Below, piece by piece: positions 29,110-37,063 of a stretch of DNA of 64,000 nucleotides (its first letter is position 1; each line of letters opens with the position of its first letter). Location of the stretch: contig NZ_CP059856.1 of the NCBI RefSeq assembly GCF_009193325.2, positions 1,984,001 to 2,048,000 of the forward strand, read 5' to 3'. Source of the stretch: Bacteroides zhangwenhongii (GTDB taxonomy: Bacteria > Bacteroidota > Bacteroidia > Bacteroidales > Bacteroidaceae). Below the pieces are notes generated by a model. It did no database searches, was not told the origin of the DNA, and saw only the letters and a program-made list of their open reading frames with translations. The position numbers and the translations under genes are program-made.

Positions 29110-29129
29110 TTGGTATATAGATATATTAT

Positions 29130-29765
29130 TTATAGAAATTTATTCAATTCTTCTACCAACAAGTAAACAGTAGTAGAAGATTCCTGTTGTGCCGGATTAT
29201 TGCCATCAAATTGTTTCATGATAGTTTTAGCATGATTTATGGCTTGCTCTTGTTTAGAAAACAAAGCATTGAACATTTTAGAACTTACACCCGATTTTTT
29301 TGTATAGGAAAATCCCAGTAAAGTGCTCAACATTTTTTCATATCTGGAACGATGTAAAGCTCCTTGATATAAATTGAAATGAAGTAAAAACCAAAACTCA
29401 AAAGCTTGGTTGCTATAAGCCACTTCAAAACCATTCTGTTGTGCCAAGAGAATCGCAGAGTTGAAATCATTTTCAGGAAAGTCATCTTTGTCAAAAACCA
29501 CCCAATTCTGGTTATATATCCGTCCTTTTCGCTTTTCCTGTTCTTTTATATTGATAGCCTTCTGCACTAATGTTAATGTTCCCATACCCTGCCCTACAGC
29601 TTTCACATTGGCTGAAGTCAAACGAAAAGCGTTAAAATAATCCGGTTCTGTATTCACTCCTTCACAAATAATCAGAAATGTTTGTTTCACTTCACGCACA
29701 CCACTGATACGAGTTATCTTTCTTTCGACACGCGGATTTATATTTTTCCCTTTTGTAGCCGCCAT
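29130..29765 (-). CDS. rloB: RloB-like protein (AbiLii type), Toprim-like
   Basis: A 211-residue protein of the RloB family. FLIICEGVNTEPDYF near residue 30 and VVFDKDDFP near residue 90 give the acidic residues of a Toprim-like nuclease fold. NQAFEFWFLLHF and LGFSYTKKSG match the later family segments. It begins 3 bp after the AAA ATPase gene, so they form one unit. RloA/RloB-type pairs resemble the lactococcal AbiL abortive infection proteins. A phage-defence role is inferred from family and context. Confidence 0.82.
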   Translation of the reverse strand: MAATKGKNINPRVERKITRISGVREVKQTFLIICEGVNTEPDYFNAFRLTSANVKAVGQGMGTLTLVQKAINIKEQEKRKGRIYNQNWVVFDKDDFPENDFNSAILLAQQNGFEVAYSNQAFEFWFLLHFNLYQGALHRSRYEKMLSTLLGFSYTKKSGVSSKMFNALFSKQEQAINHAKTIMKQFDGNNPAQQESSTTVYLLVEELNKFL

Positions 29766-29768
29766 AAG

Positions 29769-30989
29769 TTAATTTTCTTGGATATTGAACAAACGGGTTA
29801 AATCTCCAACAATTGGAATTGCTCCATACTTTCCAGATAAATAATCTTTTTCAAACGAAGCGTCATTACGTATTTTATACTCTGCCAATGAATAAAGCTC
29901 AGTTGCTCCATAGCGGTCTTTCTGTGTGAACCAGATCTGGTCTCGTCGGAAGATATTAGCACTCAATAAATTGGTATCATGAGTAGTGAAAATCAATTGA
30001 GCATTTTTCGGATTTGTTTCTTTTGAATTAAACAAGGCAATAATTCTACACGTAAGAAGTGGATGCATTTTAGAATCAAATTCATCTATAATCAGACGCT
30101 TTCCATTATCCAAGGCATCAATGATAGGATACGCTAAAGAAAAATACTTTATTGTGCCTTCCGATTCATTTTTTCTGAATGGAAAAGTAACAGTCTTCAC
30201 TTCATACCCTTTCTCATCGTACTGTGTATGCGTACTAACGATAGTATTATCTATTTTCTCAATGTTTTCAATGCCTAAATCAGCATAACGGGAAAACTCT
30301 ACAACTCTTTGCTTTATTTTAATATCATCCAATTGGATGGTTGCAGTATTCCATATCTTTTCATCATTAGAGCCTGAAATAATAGTGGTATCATTCAGCC
30401 ATTTCATTATCTCCACCGCTATCGGATCATTAAATTGAGCTGCAACAGATAGTAACAATGCGTTCGCCCTCACCATTCGTTTACCCGCAAGCTCTTTACC
30501 AACGACAAATTTGGTATGAATATCAAAATTATCTTTTTCCCGATAGAATAATTCCACTTCCTTAGCTCTCTTTTTATTAGCCTTTTGATAGAGCCACTCC
30601 GAATGTACCAATGAATTATCAGCCTCAAAACCATAACGATATTGATTGTCCTCATCACAGAATATGGCTTCAAAATAACTTGGTTCATTCACAGTGAGCG
30701 AATTCAACCGGAAACTTTCTATATTAACCCGTTCTCCCGCTTGAATATCCTTCGATGAGTTTATCACATACCATTTAAAGAATTCAAACGCCTTAATAAA
30801 ATTGGATTTCCCGGATGCATTAGCACCATAAACAACCGCACTCTTCATTAAGGATAATCCGACATTTCCTACACTAAAGATTATATCTTCAGCCGGAACC
30901 TGTATTTCTTTCAAAGCCGATGCAACCAATGACAATGTAGATTGTTCTTTGAAGGATAAAAAGTTTCCTATTTTAAATTGAATAACCAT
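29769..30989 (-). CDS. rloA: RloA-like AAA ATPase (AbiLi / OLD-like)
   Basis: A 406-residue ATPase of the AAA_15/AAA_21 type, a group related to SMC and OLD. It begins with IGNFLSFKEQSTLSL, followed by Walker A GANASGKSN at about residue 55. Late in the protein is Walker B LIIDEFDSKMHP, and FTTHDTNLL supplies the switch His. It is first in a two-gene unit with rloB. Such ATPase/RloB pairs act as abortive-infection modules in some bacteria. Here there is no restriction-modification gene beside them, so the pair is self-standing. Confidence 0.85.
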   Translation of the reverse strand: MVIQFKIGNFLSFKEQSTLSLVASALKEIQVPAEDIIFSVGNVGLSLMKSAVVYGANASGKSNFIKAFEFFKWYVINSSKDIQAGERVNIESFRLNSLTVNEPSYFEAIFCDEDNQYRYGFEADNSLVHSEWLYQKANKKRAKEVELFYREKDNFDIHTKFVVGKELAGKRMVRANALLLSVAAQFNDPIAVEIMKWLNDTTIISGSNDEKIWNTATIQLDDIKIKQRVVEFSRYADLGIENIEKIDNTIVSTHTQYDEKGYEVKTVTFPFRKNESEGTIKYFSLAYPIIDALDNGKRLIIDEFDSKMHPLLTCRIIALFNSKETNPKNAQLIFTTHDTNLLSANIFRRDQIWFTQKDRYGATELYSLAEYKIRNDASFEKDYLSGKYGAIPIVGDLTRLFNIQEN

Positions 30990-31119
30990 ACTTTAATATG
31001 CATATTTGAGAATTTATCACAAATATATCATTTATTATTCAAAATAGAAACACTTAACAGATGAATTACATTATTTTATGATAAGTTGAATAGGAATCGA
31101 TTATCAGCCCCATGACTCT

Positions 31120-31163
31120 ATCAGATAAAATACAAAATCCTGCACGTTTCTCGTACAGGATTT
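31120..31163 (-). terminator. Terminator of the fimbrial operon
   Basis: On the minus strand AAATCCTGTACG (31163-31152) pairs with 31146-31135 as 12 bp with one G-U, followed by a T-rich stretch. It lies 25 bp past the last fimbrillin stop codon. Confidence 0.75.
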
Positions 31164-31187: not shown

Positions 31188-32192
31188 TTATGAATTAGCA
31201 TCTACTTCTCCATTATCCGGCAGCACGGCTGAATTCCAATCATTAATACTCGTATCAGTAACTTTCGCCTCCGTCTTATTCACAGTAACCGTATATATGT
31301 ACTGTGTACCCTCTTTCGTCTCAAACTTCGTCTTACTTTCATCTGTATATAATTGAGTGGTATAAGTGGTACCTTCATTCTTATTATCATAATGCAAATC
31401 AAACTTCAATCCACCTTGTACACTCTCTCCCGGACAAAGGATATATACAAATTCCACATATTCTATTACGCCATCCTTTTTAACCTCTTTTCCGCTAACT
31501 CTAGGATTTGCAGTATACAGAAATGCTAATTTATCTACTGTACCATCCGGAGTAACAGTTCCGTCCTTAGGATTGAAAATCACCTTAGAATGCAGATTAT
31601 TTGCTGAACTGGAAAAAGTCAGATCGTACCACGATGCAAATGGAACAGTCGTAAAGCCTTTACCCGCTTTCAGACGGATAACCAATTTACTCATTTTATG
31701 TGCAAATTGAAATTTCAGTTCAGGGCTTTCTTTTGTACCTTTTGCTGTGGCATACAGGAAATCAATTCGATCTTGCCCCCTTACTCCTACAGGTGAGTAA
31801 TTAGTCTTTTGCTGTTTGATAATATTGCCTTCAATCGTCTTATAATTTGTTAGCTTGCTATACTCTACATAAGGATAATATGCTGAAAATTCACCATCAG
31901 CGGCTCCATAATAAATAGTAGAAAATGAACTGTTAGGTTCAAAATTATTAGTTCCCTCTATTAGATTGTATCGGTAAGCTGTATACGTAAGTTTACCGCT
32001 AGTTCCATAGATACCTATCACATCACCGGTCTGCCATTCACTATCATCCGTCACACGTGTTTTTAGTCCGTCAATTCCGGCTGATACTTCAGCAGCCACT
32101 TGCTCGTTATCAGCAATACTCTCAATCTCAGTGTTATCACACCCAGCAAATGCTATTAACAAAGAGACCGCTAAAAAATAGTTCTTTTTCAT
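31188..32192 (-). CDS. Fimbrillin-family lipoprotein
   Basis: A 334-residue lipoprotein (lipobox IAFAGC). The two-domain fimbrillin pattern is visible: SEWQTGDVIGIYG near residue 55, YYPYV, DFLYATAKG, and FAHKMSKLVIRLKAG near residue 165. The C-terminal TINDWNS form is the usual ending (here SINDWNSAVLPDNGEV). Such proteins are structural or tip subunits of Bacteroidales type V pili, exported as lipoproteins and processed on the surface. It is the last gene of the four-gene operon. Confidence 0.88.
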   Translation of the reverse strand: MKKNYFLAVSLLIAFAGCDNTEIESIADNEQVAAEVSAGIDGLKTRVTDDSEWQTGDVIGIYGTSGKLTYTAYRYNLIEGTNNFEPNSSFSTIYYGAADGEFSAYYPYVEYSKLTNYKTIEGNIIKQQKTNYSPVGVRGQDRIDFLYATAKGTKESPELKFQFAHKMSKLVIRLKAGKGFTTVPFASWYDLTFSSSANNLHSKVIFNPKDGTVTPDGTVDKLAFLYTANPRVSGKEVKKDGVIEYVEFVYILCPGESVQGGLKFDLHYDNKNEGTTYTTQLYTDESKTKFETKEGTQYIYTVTVNKTEAKVTDTSINDWNSAVLPDNGEVDANS

Positions 32193-32234: not shown

Positions 32235-33173
32235 TTATTGTGCATCAACCTCACCACCATTCACCTTAGTCCAATCATTAATGGTAGCTCCGATAATTTC
32301 CGCTCTCGTACGGTGCAGTTTCACTTCATACATGTACTTGCTGCCTGCATCCAATGTCTTATCCATTGTCCAGGTGAAAGGTTCGTCATTTCCATTATTC
32401 AAATCAAAAGTCAGCACACGTGACTTAGCTGCATCGGGTAATAGAATAGCCTCGCTCAAAGTGCCGGACTCGGTTGTAAGCAATGTGACATCCGACTTAT
32501 CCGCTCCGCACGCAAGCGTACCGTTAGAAAGATTGAAAGTCGCTTTTATAGGTTGATCGCCAACTGTGATACTAAGATTTTTCAGGTCAGCCGTATTCAA
32601 TCCGTCGCCCGGACTTATTACCAATACTAACTTAGAAAGCTTATGAACAAATTTGAATCCTACTTTCGGATTCTCCTTTGTGCATCCTTCCACCTTGCCG
32701 GCATACATGAAGTCGATAGCTTCCTGACTACTTTGAACAGTCACATTCAACGGATAAGTATAATCCGTCAGCGGAGAGATAAAAGGATAATATGCATAAA
32801 AATCCACCGCACCGACAACGGGGAAATAGATAATATTCGTATTATCCCCTTCCGTCTCTGCTCCATCGGGTTTAAAATTGCCGTCTCCTCCCGTAGTCAC
32901 ATAGCATTTATTATCCGCTCCACCACAAATATTCTCCTGCGTCAACCCCGCACCGTTACCGGAATACACCATAAAAACGCCGATTTTATCATTATATCCC
33001 CAGTCCGTATCTATGGCACGACTTGCCGAAGCTCCTTTCGTTCCAATCTCCCCCTGCACAGTCAATGCCGTGCGTCCGTCGGGCACAGGCGAAGATTGCG
33101 GCTCATTATCGTTGCTACAAGCTCCCAACGAGGCAGCCAGTGCGACATACAGTACAAATTTCTTATTCTTCAT
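32235..33173 (-). CDS. Fimbrillin-family lipoprotein
   Basis: A 312-residue lipoprotein (lipobox SLGACS). It shares the pattern of its neighbour: TDWGYNDKIGVFM, YYPFI, DFMYAGKVEG and FVHKLSKLVLVISPG, ending ATINDWTKVNGGEVD. Sequence between these anchors is quite different from the next gene, so the two are probably different pilus subunits, not recent duplicates. It is third in the operon, after the FimB/Mfa2-like gene. Confidence 0.88.
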   Translation of the reverse strand: MKNKKFVLYVALAASLGACSNDNEPQSSPVPDGRTALTVQGEIGTKGASASRAIDTDWGYNDKIGVFMVYSGNGAGLTQENICGGADNKCYVTTGGDGNFKPDGAETEGDNTNIIYFPVVGAVDFYAYYPFISPLTDYTYPLNVTVQSSQEAIDFMYAGKVEGCTKENPKVGFKFVHKLSKLVLVISPGDGLNTADLKNLSITVGDQPIKATFNLSNGTLACGADKSDVTLLTTESGTLSEAILLPDAAKSRVLTFDLNNGNDEPFTWTMDKTLDAGSKYMYEVKLHRTRAEIIGATINDWTKVNGGEVDAQ

Positions 33174-33217: not shown

Positions 33218-34105
33218 TTAATGAATATCCACTTGTCCGCCGTCCACTGGACTCCAGTTACTAATTTCCCCTGAGAAGTCCGTCTGAGAAGGCAAATCAA
33301 AGTTCGCTCCCAATACCAACGGAGTCATCGAACCGTCGTCAAAATGCTCATGCAATATTTCGGTAAGATCAGTTTCTATTGTCTGTACGGTTCCGTTGTT
33401 CAATGTCACAGCTACGGTAAGTTCTTGCTCATCTTCCGGAAGAATACCAAACAAACGGATCGTTGCGGTCAGTGTAGGAGTCCCGTCGCTTGCTTCGGTT
33501 TTCATAAAAACAGGAGAAAGAAATGTGTCCGATATAGAGACCAAAGCTCCGGTTCTGAGATTTATACCGGAAGCAATGCCGCTTAAAGTAGCATTCACTG
33601 CGGTAATGTGTTTATGGTCGCCCTCTTTTAGTTTCAGCACCAATGTCAGTTGGCGAATGCGTTGCCGCATCTTGACCGTAACAGAGAGTGTGTCGTCTTT
33701 CGCCATATCCAATGCTTGCACCGCAGAGAATAGATAACCGGGAAGAGCCTCTATGCCGTTTCCACCCGCAGCAGTTACCGTAGCTATATCACCGGAAACT
33801 GTAATGGATTCGGGTACATTATATACCAGCAACTCGTAAGATTCCGGTTCAAGCAAGGCATGATAAAGGTTGGTATTTCCTTTCACGGATTGCTCGTCAC
33901 TCATTCCTGAACGACCGGAAACACGAAGCAGATAGGATACAGGCTGCACAGACTCAGAGGAGCGGTCACTCCAATCTGTCGTCACCAGCAATGCTCCTTG
34001 TGTCGGGTGAGGAGTGCGATATACATCATCCTTGACACAGGAGGACATCAGAAGAACAGCACCGCAAATGAGGGCGGCACATGAAGTTATTTTAATAGTT
34101 TCCAT
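33218..34105 (-). CDS. FimB/Mfa2-like fimbrial anchor lipoprotein
   Basis: A 295-residue lipoprotein (lipobox LMSSC). Features include the early VTTDWSDRS and the Mfa2-type middle KMRQRIRQLTLVLKLKEG, and it ends SNWSPVDGGQVDIH. Members of this family anchor the pilus to the outer membrane and limit its length. Its start overlaps the end of the DUF3575 gene by 19 bp, which suggests translational coupling. It is second in the operon. Confidence 0.82.
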   Translation of the reverse strand: METIKITSCAALICGAVLLMSSCVKDDVYRTPHPTQGALLVTTDWSDRSSESVQPVSYLLRVSGRSGMSDEQSVKGNTNLYHALLEPESYELLVYNVPESITVSGDIATVTAAGGNGIEALPGYLFSAVQALDMAKDDTLSVTVKMRQRIRQLTLVLKLKEGDHKHITAVNATLSGIASGINLRTGALVSISDTFLSPVFMKTEASDGTPTLTATIRLFGILPEDEQELTVAVTLNNGTVQTIETDLTEILHEHFDDGSMTPLVLGANFDLPSQTDFSGEISNWSPVDGGQVDIH

Positions 34106-35148
34106 ATCAGTGTGATTCCTAATTGGTTAATACCCCAATAATTTTTTGTCTTACAATCTTTGCGTACACGAACCTTATTGATAAGCGTGTATTCGTCATA
34201 ATCGGCGTAAGTATAACCTACTCCGGCATGAAAGTCGAGCGAAAGATTACTGTTCAGGTCTAGCTGATACCCGCCTGTAAATCCCCCACCCAGATAGTCA
34301 CCCTGACGACCGGTATTACCAAGTTTGTAGTGAAACTCGCCCGTATGATACATCGCCCCGAGAAAGCCACGACTTTTCCCGCCCAGATAGTAACGTATTT
34401 CAGGAGAAACCTTCCAAAGAGCGTAGCGACGGTTTTTATCATCCCAACTCCATGAAGTCCAACTGCCGTTGACTAAAACACCCAAGTGGCGGTTTACACG
34501 CCATTCTACACCTAGGTCGGGAGTCAGCGTAGCCCAACGAAGCAGGTTAGCGCGCAAAGCAAGGCGATAAGACGGATGTGTTTCAGATGAAGCCAGAAGT
34601 TTCTCCGAAGAAACGCCGACAGATGTTGTTTCCGGACAAGTCCCCTGTTCAGAATTTTCCGAAATATCCTCCATTTCCTTTTCCTTTATTACAGGTATTA
34701 CAGAGTCCTCTTTTACATTTGCTGCCGCCTCATCTTTGGGTAGACGAAGACGAACGATGACCACATGGCGCAAATCCCCATAAGTTTCAGCATGGTTACG
34801 AGTGATGAAGCAGTTTTCGTTGATTCCTTTGCACAGGATAAGTTCCGATTTCACACGATTACTGCGAATTTTAGCTAGTTTCAGATTCTCTGCAACCGTA
34901 GGTTCCGAAGCACAATAACCATCTACCAGCAAAGGAGCTTCACCACTCAAAATAGCGGCTTTGTGGTTTTCTACAAGAGATAACAGATGATCCAATTGCG
35001 TGCCGTTCCCTTTCCAAGGAATATAAAACATATCCTTATGAGAAACAAAACGAAAGACATAAAGAGTGTCGGGTGTCTGTGCCATAGAAACGGCAGGTAG
35101 CAAGAGCGGCAGGAACAAAAGCAGAAGATAAAATTTGTGTATCTGCAT
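34087..35148 (-). CDS. DUF3575 outer membrane protein with OmpA-like N-terminal segment
   Basis: A 353-residue exported protein (signal MQIHKFYLLLLFLPLLLPAVSMA). Residues 25-130 contain an OmpA-like segment (LLVDGYCASEPTVAENLKLAKIRSNRVKSELI, read as a fold). The C-terminal part is a DUF3575 beta-barrel with LRANLLRWATLTPDLGVEWR and closing LIWKLLK. This family commonly begins fimbrial operons of Bacteroides. It is the first gene, 41 bp from the left site of an invertible promoter segment. Confidence 0.85.
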   Translation of the reverse strand: MQIHKFYLLLLFLPLLLPAVSMAQTPDTLYVFRFVSHKDMFYIPWKGNGTQLDHLLSLVENHKAAILSGEAPLLVDGYCASEPTVAENLKLAKIRSNRVKSELILCKGINENCFITRNHAETYGDLRHVVIVRLRLPKDEAAANVKEDSVIPVIKEKEMEDISENSEQGTCPETTSVGVSSEKLLASSETHPSYRLALRANLLRWATLTPDLGVEWRVNRHLGVLVNGSWTSWSWDDKNRRYALWKVSPEIRYYLGGKSRGFLGAMYHTGEFHYKLGNTGRQGDYLGGGFTGGYQLDLNSNLSLDFHAGVGYTYADYDEYTLINKVRVRKDCKTKNYWGINQLGITLIWKLLK

Positions 35149-35189
35149 TGTCGTTGAGTTTTTAATGAATATTCAGTCCTTTTCATTTT

Positions 35190-35495
35190 CCGTTACTTTG
35201 TAGGTAACGGAAAAAAACTTATTCAGCGTTCTTACAAAGACATTCTATTAAAAAGCACTTCAATAAATAATAAAAGTCTAGTACCTCCGCTTAATTAGAA
35301 TTATGGTAGAGGGAAAAGTGTTTTGCATATTTTAGCAATCTGATGGCTATAAATGTAAAAAATAGGGTGTTTTATGCGTATAACCTCCTATTTAGTATGC
35401 TTTATTAGAAAATAAACCCATTTTTATTTGCATATTTTAATTAATACCAATACTTTTGTTGCGCATCTCACTTTCCGTTACCTACAAAGTAACGG
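35190..35495. promoter_or_regulatory. Invertible promoter segment with 24-bp inverted repeats
   Basis: Sites 35190-35213 and 35472-35495 are perfect inverted copies. Each is itself a recombination-site-like dyad: TCCGTTAC, 7-bp spacer TTTGTAG, GTAACGG. The spacer is asymmetric and inverted between the copies, as required for inversion. Inside, TTTG (35427-35430), 20 bp, TACTTTTG (35451-35458) forms a strong promoter directed to the right, away from the fimbrial operon. Flipping would place it about 45-50 bp from the DUF3575 start codon, pointing into the operon. Confidence 0.85.
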
Positions 35496-35537
35496 GTGCA
35501 TAATCAACTCATAAACAAACAAATACAAATCCAATCA

Positions 35538-36551
35538 TTATCTTATCCCGTTCCTAAGACCGTCTTTTACGCAAGCAATTACCATTCTATTTGCCTTGTC
35601 CAATTCTTCCGTTTCAAAAGGTTTAAGATAAGTTTCCGTCACTTTTATGGAAGAATGTCCTAAGGCATTGCTAATGATACCAATCGGGCACTTTTTGCGA
35701 TAGGCAAGAGTAGCCCAAGTATGCCGGGGCGTATAAGAGGACAGTTTGCACTTTACCCCAATAACGTAAGCCAAGTGATCCAGTCGCCGGTTGAAATCGC
35801 GAAGAACACACAGGTATCGGTCATATTCCTCACGACTACCGATACCACCCGCTTTTCCTCCATCCAAAATAGAAAGAAGATAAGGAGAAGCAGGATTAGT
35901 ATCAGAACAGGTTCGAATCAGAGACTCCGCCTCTTTCGGTACAGTCACCGTTAGACGACGCCCCGTCTTTTGACGGCAATAACTGACTACCCCGTCTTTA
36001 TAATCACATTTGCGCAAACGGGCAAGGTCGGCAAAAGGTATTCCACGAAGCAGAAACAGCAAGGAGAACCAGCAACGGGCTTCTTGCAAATTATCTTGTA
36101 CCAACGAAGACGAAACAGAAGTGCCAACCGCCACGCTACCTAAGTCCGGCAACGGGAAAGATAAAATCTTCGCCATATCGGCGGGTGAAAGCGCACGTTT
36201 CACGTCGGCACAAGTACCTGTATAGACACTGTCAAAAAGACCGGCCGTATAATCTACTTCACCGTCTTTCAAAAGCCGATGATATACCGCACGCAGCATC
36301 CGCATATAGGTGGAGATAGTGTTCATCTTCAACAACTTGCCTCTCAGATACTCCTCAAATTCCCGCAAGACGCTTACGGTAAATACGTTACGTACTGCCA
36401 TTAAGATTTTTCTCCCTTTACGCTTATTCCAATAAGCGGTAAAAGTGTGGAGAGTACTACGGTAGACATGAGCGGAGCCAAAACGATGTTCATCTTCCAG
36501 AGTCTGCACCAAAGAGAGCATAAATTCAGTCAAATTTTTCTTTTCTTTCAT
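35538..36551 (-). CDS. Tyrosine-type site-specific recombinase (probable DNA invertase)
   Basis: A 337-residue recombinase with an N-terminal SAM-like core-binding domain (HVYRSTLHTFTAYW, LREFEEYLRGKLL). The catalytic domain contains Arg in LFLLRGIPFADLARLR, the H-x-x-R motif as YTPRHTWATLAY, a later LGHSSIKVTETYL with the third His, and the nucleophile Tyr in ETYLKPF. It is 40 bp from the right inverted repeat. I infer it inverts the promoter segment between itself and the fimbrial operon, as related Bacteroides invertases do. Confidence 0.92.
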   Translation of the reverse strand: MKEKKNLTEFMLSLVQTLEDEHRFGSAHVYRSTLHTFTAYWNKRKGRKILMAVRNVFTVSVLREFEEYLRGKLLKMNTISTYMRMLRAVYHRLLKDGEVDYTAGLFDSVYTGTCADVKRALSPADMAKILSFPLPDLGSVAVGTSVSSSLVQDNLQEARCWFSLLFLLRGIPFADLARLRKCDYKDGVVSYCRQKTGRRLTVTVPKEAESLIRTCSDTNPASPYLLSILDGGKAGGIGSREEYDRYLCVLRDFNRRLDHLAYVIGVKCKLSSYTPRHTWATLAYRKKCPIGIISNALGHSSIKVTETYLKPFETEELDKANRMVIACVKDGLRNGIR

Positions 36552-36581
36552 TACGGAGATAATTATAATTAATTATTAATA

Positions 36582-37063
36582 GCCTTCACCTTTTTGCTGT
36601 AACTCGTTATTCATAGGCATTAGCGGGTGAAGGGCGGTATCTTCACCTGCAACACACCTCCGGTTCATTAGCAGCAAACTTCCTTTTTTATAGACACTAA
36701 ACTTCTTTTCTATTATAGATAAACTTCTCTTCTTACGAATATAAAATTCTTTTTCACTAATCACAATCTATAAACGCAAGTTGCGTTTATAAAAACAAAG
36801 CTTGCATTTATAAAAACAAAGGCTTCGTTTTTATAATCAAAGCCTTCGTTTATAGTTTATCTATAACCAAAAAGAAATTAGTTCTTATAGAAAGGAAGTT
36901 TAGATCCTATAGAAAAGAAGTTCATCTACAATATCCGGTCGCCATCAGACCAATTATCGGTATACATAGATAGCTTAAAAAGAGGAAAGCGGGTGAAATA
37001 TATGCCCTTCACCCGCTAACGCCTATGAATAGGGTATTATAGCGAAAAGGTGAAGGGCGGTAT
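36582..37063. repeat. MITE-like element with large imperfect inverted repeats
   Basis: The right end 37004-37031 matches the complement of 36608-36635 at 27 of 28 bases, and 37041-37056 matches the complement of 36583-36598 at 15 of 16. Each end also contains its own CCTTCACC/GGTGAAGG hairpin. Inside are more symmetric blocks, including TATAAACGCAA/TTGCGTTTATA around 36769-36793 and AACTTCTTTTCTAT with a matching block near 36915. No transposase is present. It fills most of the gap between recombinase and TonB receptor genes. Confidence 0.55.

Follow-up and report, generated by a model that had tools for sequence, protein, structure and literature searches.

Introduction

In the genome of Bacteroides zhangwenhongii, a pair of inverted repeats at 35190–35495 of a 64,000-nt stretch of DNA (the whole stretch that was analysed, hereafter the window) lies between a predicted fimbria operon and a tyrosine recombinase gene, which raises the question of whether the interval is a promoter switch and in which state the assembly has caught it. 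An earlier note on this DNA had read it as an invertible fimbrial promoter in the OFF orientation. Our analysis supports this as the best reading, the evidence for inversion coming from comparison within the class and the promoter being a predicted one. Very probably, 35190–35495 is a phase-variation switch whose promoter is flipped by the adjacent recombinase and now points away from the predicted fimbria operon. The analysis maps one fimbrial switch of a human gut species at base resolution. It also yields a rule for the whole class (recombinase, short gap, dyad, promoter at a fixed distance) that predicts phase-variable surface operons as well as the state caught by the assembly.

Repeats, predicted promoter and neighbouring genes

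The inverted-repeat search showed that the two 24-nt arms are 100% complementary with 258 nt between them, and that this pair is the sole inverted repeat of at least 12 nt in 34800–36200 (Table 1). Each dyad has a 7+7+7 architecture, in which a CCGTTAC arm and a GTAACGG arm enclose an asymmetric 7-nt spacer (CTACAAA read outward), and the spacers of both dyads of the fimbrial element are identical. The perfect 24-bp repeats with asymmetric-spacer dyads described in the earlier note were thus borne out, and so was the tyrosine recombinase beside them, by the Pfam matches of the adjacent ORF. This ORF is intact and contains RHTWAT, LGH and ETYLK, which we take to be the catalytic motifs of the recombinase; its stop codon is 42 nt from the right dyad, within the distance of about 65 nt that holds for the class.

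Bacteroides promoters have the consensus TTTG/TAnnTTTG. Scored against it, the motif TTTG-N20-TACTTTTG reached 10/10, and only 0.8% of letter-shuffled segments reached a score of at least 9 in the end zones, so that the strong promoter claimed for the segment holds as a predicted motif. The start of its -7 box is 24 nt from the dyad, at the upper end of the class range of 21–24 nt. The claim that this promoter now points toward the recombinase gene, antisense to it, was right in its geometry, and the same geometry was found in 64/64 of the dyad-defined elements surveyed below that have the recombinase outside the segment.

On the far side of the segment, gene order and Pfam matches indicate a surface-structure operon that reads away from it. 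The gene order DUF3575-FimB-fimbrillin proposed beyond the left repeat was confirmed, but the proposed list was short by one gene, the second fimbrillin-like ORF. At 29130–30989 (minus strand), an AAA_21 ATPase and RloB-like pair matches the AbiLi/AbiLii defence models. The stretch 29116–31127 is cleanly missing in Bacteroides finegoldii TSDC17.2-1.1 (L244, 5840/5842), and is a presence/absence difference directly adjoining the fimbria operon.

Table 1. Features of the fimbrial element and its surroundings, in window positions
Feature	Position	Strand	Remarks
Second fimbrillin-like protein	31188..32192	-	PF13149
Fimbrillin-like protein	32235..33173	-	PF13149
Mfa2/FimB family anchor protein	33218..34105	-	PF08842
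DUF3575 protein, first gene of predicted target operon	34087..35148	-	PF12099; start codon 41 nt from left dyad
Left (target-side) inverted repeat	35190..35213	+	dyad CCGTTAC-TTTGTAG-GTAACGG at 35190-35210
Segment predicted to invert	35211..35474	.	264 nt dyad to dyad; inversion inferred from relatives
Predicted promoter	35427..35458	+	TTTG 35427-35430, 20 nt, TACTTTTG 35451-35458; faces recombinase gene (OFF)
Right (recombinase-side) inverted repeat	35472..35495	-	dyad CCGTTAC-CTACAAA-GTAACGG (+ strand) at 35475-35495
Tyrosine recombinase, predicted invertase	35538..36551	-	337 aa; PF13102 + PF00589; transcribed toward segment
MITE-like nested palindromic repeat	36583..37056	.	upstream of recombinase gene; context, outside switch

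Elements of the same class in Bacteroides genomes

There are 6 copies of the exact dyad in the B. zhangwenhongii genome, vs 0 for the reversed control, and the dyads of this genome form four elements, all adjoining their own recombinase gene. L005 and L006, both with the spacer CTAAGAA, are next to UpxY-like capsule genes, and L007, with the spacer CTATAAA, is located before an S-layer-like protein (weak DUF4988 match) that presumably resembles the B. thetaiotaomicron S-layer protein. Across the four elements the recombinase stop codon is 9–43 nt from the nearer dyad, and the predicted promoter faces the recombinase gene in 4/4.

Among the matches listed, exact dyads were found in 35/80 Bacteroides genomes, and the reversed control gave mostly 0, with a maximum of 1 per genome. 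A dyad-defined set was assembled from the matches listed and a paired-dyad scan of named genomes (16 stretches). The 81 dyad hits were reduced to 67 non-duplicate elements: 5 hits had no recombinase next to them, 8 were duplicates and 1 lacked a partner. The recombinase is outside the segment in 64/67, and in all 64 of these it is transcribed toward the segment, at a distance of at most 64 nt in 62. A second set, which avoids choosing by dyad, was defined by recombinase similarity and comprised 110 loci among the matches listed. The results showed that a GTTAC-N7-GTAAC inverted pair lies on the 3′ side of the recombinase gene in 90 of the 110 (87 non-redundant), that the promoter score is at least 9 in 83/87, compared with 0.8% of shuffles, and that the -7 box is 21–24 nt from the dyad in 82/83. 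Among the 20/110 loci without the pair, 15 were re-examined: 7 have the recombinase inside the segment and 8 have no pair in the stretch examined. In L094, L096, L110, L209, L211, L218 and L226, a segment of about 1.3–1.4 kb encloses the recombinase gene, and 7/7 score OFF.

The merged set of 126 elements was sorted by similarity of the targets to exemplars, some with a weak or no Pfam match, into 48 S-layer-like, 37 fimbrial, 19 capsule and 9 other elements and 13 without type. By the promoter rule, 110 are OFF, 6 ON and 7 weak, and 3 have the recombinase inside the segment; these calls follow a motif rule, and the counts contain near-copies, which are not independent. In this class, OFF seems to be the prevailing state. 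When 122 recombinases were placed on a quick tree, target type tracked the branching, with 13 changes for five labels vs a shuffled mean of 63.6. The recombinase of the fimbrial element belongs to a starred group of ten, every one with a fimbrial target, and its sister is that of L140 (62% identity), a locus with the same operon order and the spacer CTGCAAA at each site. Long branches, those of this pair among them, drew a warning from the tree program.

Comparative evidence for inversion

We aligned the segments in the recombinase frame and kept pairs at E ≤1e-5 and ≥60 nt, which gave 1552 scored pairs. Same-state segments were parallel in 1396/1396 pairs and opposite-state segments inverted in 156/156, for example L087/L210 (96.2% over 262 bp), L217/L179 of one and the same genome (95.0% over 261 bp) and L092/L114 (91.6% over 251 bp). 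This is direct evidence, at the level of sequence comparison, that segments of this class invert. The fimbrial pair L108/L235, with promoters scoring 8.5 each and outside the 1552, is inverted to each other as well (82.5% over 285 bp). The fimbrial element of B. zhangwenhongii was found in one orientation only, the assembled one, and the segment in both orientations among its class relatives. Neither a flipped nor a second copy of the element turned up: viral contigs gave 0, genome contigs searched with the recombinase gave none, and plasmids gave one record (L244), in which the element is absent; the solved-structure search gave no match.

The spacer identity of paired sites is in part a product of how the pairs were chosen, as dyad pairs were allowed ≤1 spacer mismatch and recombinase-defined pairs were picked by the lowest mismatch. 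When partners near these elements were sought by their arms only (≤3 arm mismatches), the spacers were identical in 108/110 and had one mismatch in 2/110. The paired sites of L087 (3963; CTATGAA/CTACGAA), which scores ON, and of L205 (CTACGAA/CTACAAA) differ by one nucleotide, and both elements are possibly blocked switches.

Natural deletion in B. finegoldii TSDC17.2-1.1

The record L244, labelled plasmid 16, has the same chromosomal neighbourhood as the fimbrial element (97.7% over 3424 bp and 98.2% over 8006 bp), and because of this we took it to be chromosomal DNA from the same species. Missing from it is the interval of about 35199–36559, which runs from the interior of the left spacer to a point shortly ahead of the recombinase start, so that the segment and the recombinase are gone; the record retains CCGTTACTT. 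Its DUF3575 frame ends at residue 215, and the annotation of its fimbrillin region shows three short proteins. The metagenomic clusters P0036 and P0046 (214 aa; 71 and 122 members) may represent the same truncation; the full-length cluster P0001 has 545 members. The loss of the switch together with the decay of the operon fits a switch that serves as the operon promoter, as one case in which either event may have come first. The MITE-like repeat is likewise found in L244.

Proposed mechanism and alternative explanations

In the mechanism that we propose, the adjacent tyrosine recombinase would bind the CCGTTAC arms of both dyads, and strand exchange inside the identical 7-nt spacers would flip the segment. 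Once flipped, the promoter would sit 24 nt inside the left dyad and drive DUF3575, whose start codon is 41 nt past that dyad. As now oriented, it would send transcripts into the recombinase gene from its 3′ end, in the antisense direction. Nothing resembling a terminator was found on the way from the OFF promoter to this gene, and antisense transcription is therefore expected.

Since the recombinase-facing geometry is universal, an antisense lock could explain the excess of OFF elements: the antisense promoter would starve the cell of invertase, and the ON state would lift this brake and be short-lived. A self-holding OFF state of this kind, if true, would explain 110 OFF vs 6 ON together with the fixed recombinase orientation. 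We consider it unlikely. The cost of surface structures could be selected against, or the recombinase could be directional, and either fits the OFF excess at least as well as antisense repression of the recombinase. As the cause of this excess the antisense lock was rejected on the elements that enclose their recombinase: in these the promoter points away from the start of the gene, yet all seven are OFF. No fewer than five of the seven look like near-copies, so that the independent cases are few. Among the papers searched, none joins Bacteroides, antisense, invertible promoter and recombinase.

The intactness of the recombinase bears on another explanation, that the element is a fossil in which the MITE-like repeat silences the recombinase, so that the strain could leave OFF only through a recombinase paralogue acting in trans. 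The palindromic repeat, with dozens of partial copies in the genome (46 matches), begins some 30 nt ahead of the recombinase start, and a scan of the 520 nt upstream of the recombinase gave no strong promoter match, the best scoring only 8.5 at a distance of 192 nt, which together make expression of the recombinase uncertain; in addition, the conspecific record L244 is without the switch altogether. However, the recombinase genes of relatives, including those without the MITE-like repeat, likewise have no strong upstream matches, so that the promoter motif rule is no proof of silencing. The ORF has kept its motifs, and both arms and spacers at 35190–35495 are perfect, compared with a decayed recombinase-side outer arm in 39/64 dyad-defined elements. 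Inversion despite a broken adjacent recombinase is reported in the available part of PMC13114119, and the fossil explanation seems distinctly improbable to us. Still more so, to an extreme degree, is the explanation that the dyads are regulator binding sites or RNA hairpins that do not recombine, because relatives carry the segment inverted, which makes it unlikely for the class already. A message would carry each dyad close to its 5′ end, and the outer CC is kept in 66/87 target-side outer half-sites (69 and 74/87 in two others) vs 18/87 recombinase-side outer ones. This asymmetry is what an RNA leader hairpin under selection would produce, and the longer stem is on the target side in 62 elements vs 4 (21 ties), but the covariation test went against it: no covariation was found between the promoter-proximal arm and the target-side arm, and the distal arm pairs more often (188 vs 113 for the proximal), so this candidate was rejected.

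The 7-nt spacer might act as an address that prevents recombination between the switches of one genome. Spacers vary among loci, with 51 changes on the recombinase tree (122 rows), and the two sites of one element nearly always match. Within genomes, however, S-layer paralogues share spacers in 7/50 pairs (shuffled mean 8.9, P 0.33), fimbrial paralogues share 2 vs 2.0 when shuffled, and CTAAGAA is found in 18/19 capsule elements; the within-genome permutation test rejected the spacer as a locus address, and we hold this role to be very improbable. L191 and L194 of one genome (G115) have nearly identical recombinases but differ in their element spacers; the spacer is therefore not set by the recombinase.

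Comparison with known systems

The E. coli fim switch combines an invertible promoter, tyrosine recombination and fimbriae, with paired FimB/FimE recombinase genes. The proposed promoter switch of B. zhangwenhongii resembles it in the first three respects, by analogy only, and differs in its single recombinase gene, its unrelated fimbriae and its other repeats: one recombinase ORF was found, with the DUF3575 gene and a TonB-receptor-like ORF as neighbours. The Mpi-type capsule switches of B. fragilis use a serine invertase, whereas a tyrosine recombinase adjoins 35190–35495. Closer in kind is the Tsr-controlled outer surface protein locus of B. fragilis (Weinacht 2004), recounted in the available part of PMC12632263 as phase-variable and matching a fimbrial protein; as described there, it shares with our element a tyrosine recombinase, inversion (predicted in our case) and a fimbria-like phase-variable locus.

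According to PMC11892184, in the part available, gut invertons occur near fimbrillin genes and FimB/Mfa2 genes, fimbrillin family genes are enriched beside Bacteroidota inverton groups, and the invertases linked to inverton groups are mostly 'non-regulatable', that is, outside the control of the promoter, which agrees with the geometry of the recombinase at 35538–36551. Unlike our analysis, its main text gives no base-level site or antisense treatment ('antisense' and 'gttac' occur 0 times).

Promoter inversion was called established in Bacteroides by the earlier note, and this agrees with the site class published in PMC12118408. The available part of that paper describes invertible promoters of B. 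thetaiotaomicron and B. xylanisolvens with GTTAC-GTAAC repeats beside tyrosine-type invertases, and the consensus CCGTTACCTABVRAGTAAC before S-layer and OmpA-family loci. The arms are the same as those of the fimbrial element, and the segment of about 280 bp likewise lies beside an integrase. The possible novelty of the site sequence did not hold, as the 20-bp repeat GTTACTTTGTAGGTAACGGA of B. xylanisolvens is contained in both arms at 35190–35495; in the parts of the paper covered, no named target is tied to the copy with this same spacer. The site class is thus already published, and the fimbrial element adds one member to it, which differs from the capsule, S-layer and OmpA-family targets described there in facing a DUF3575-Mfa2-fimbrillin operon.
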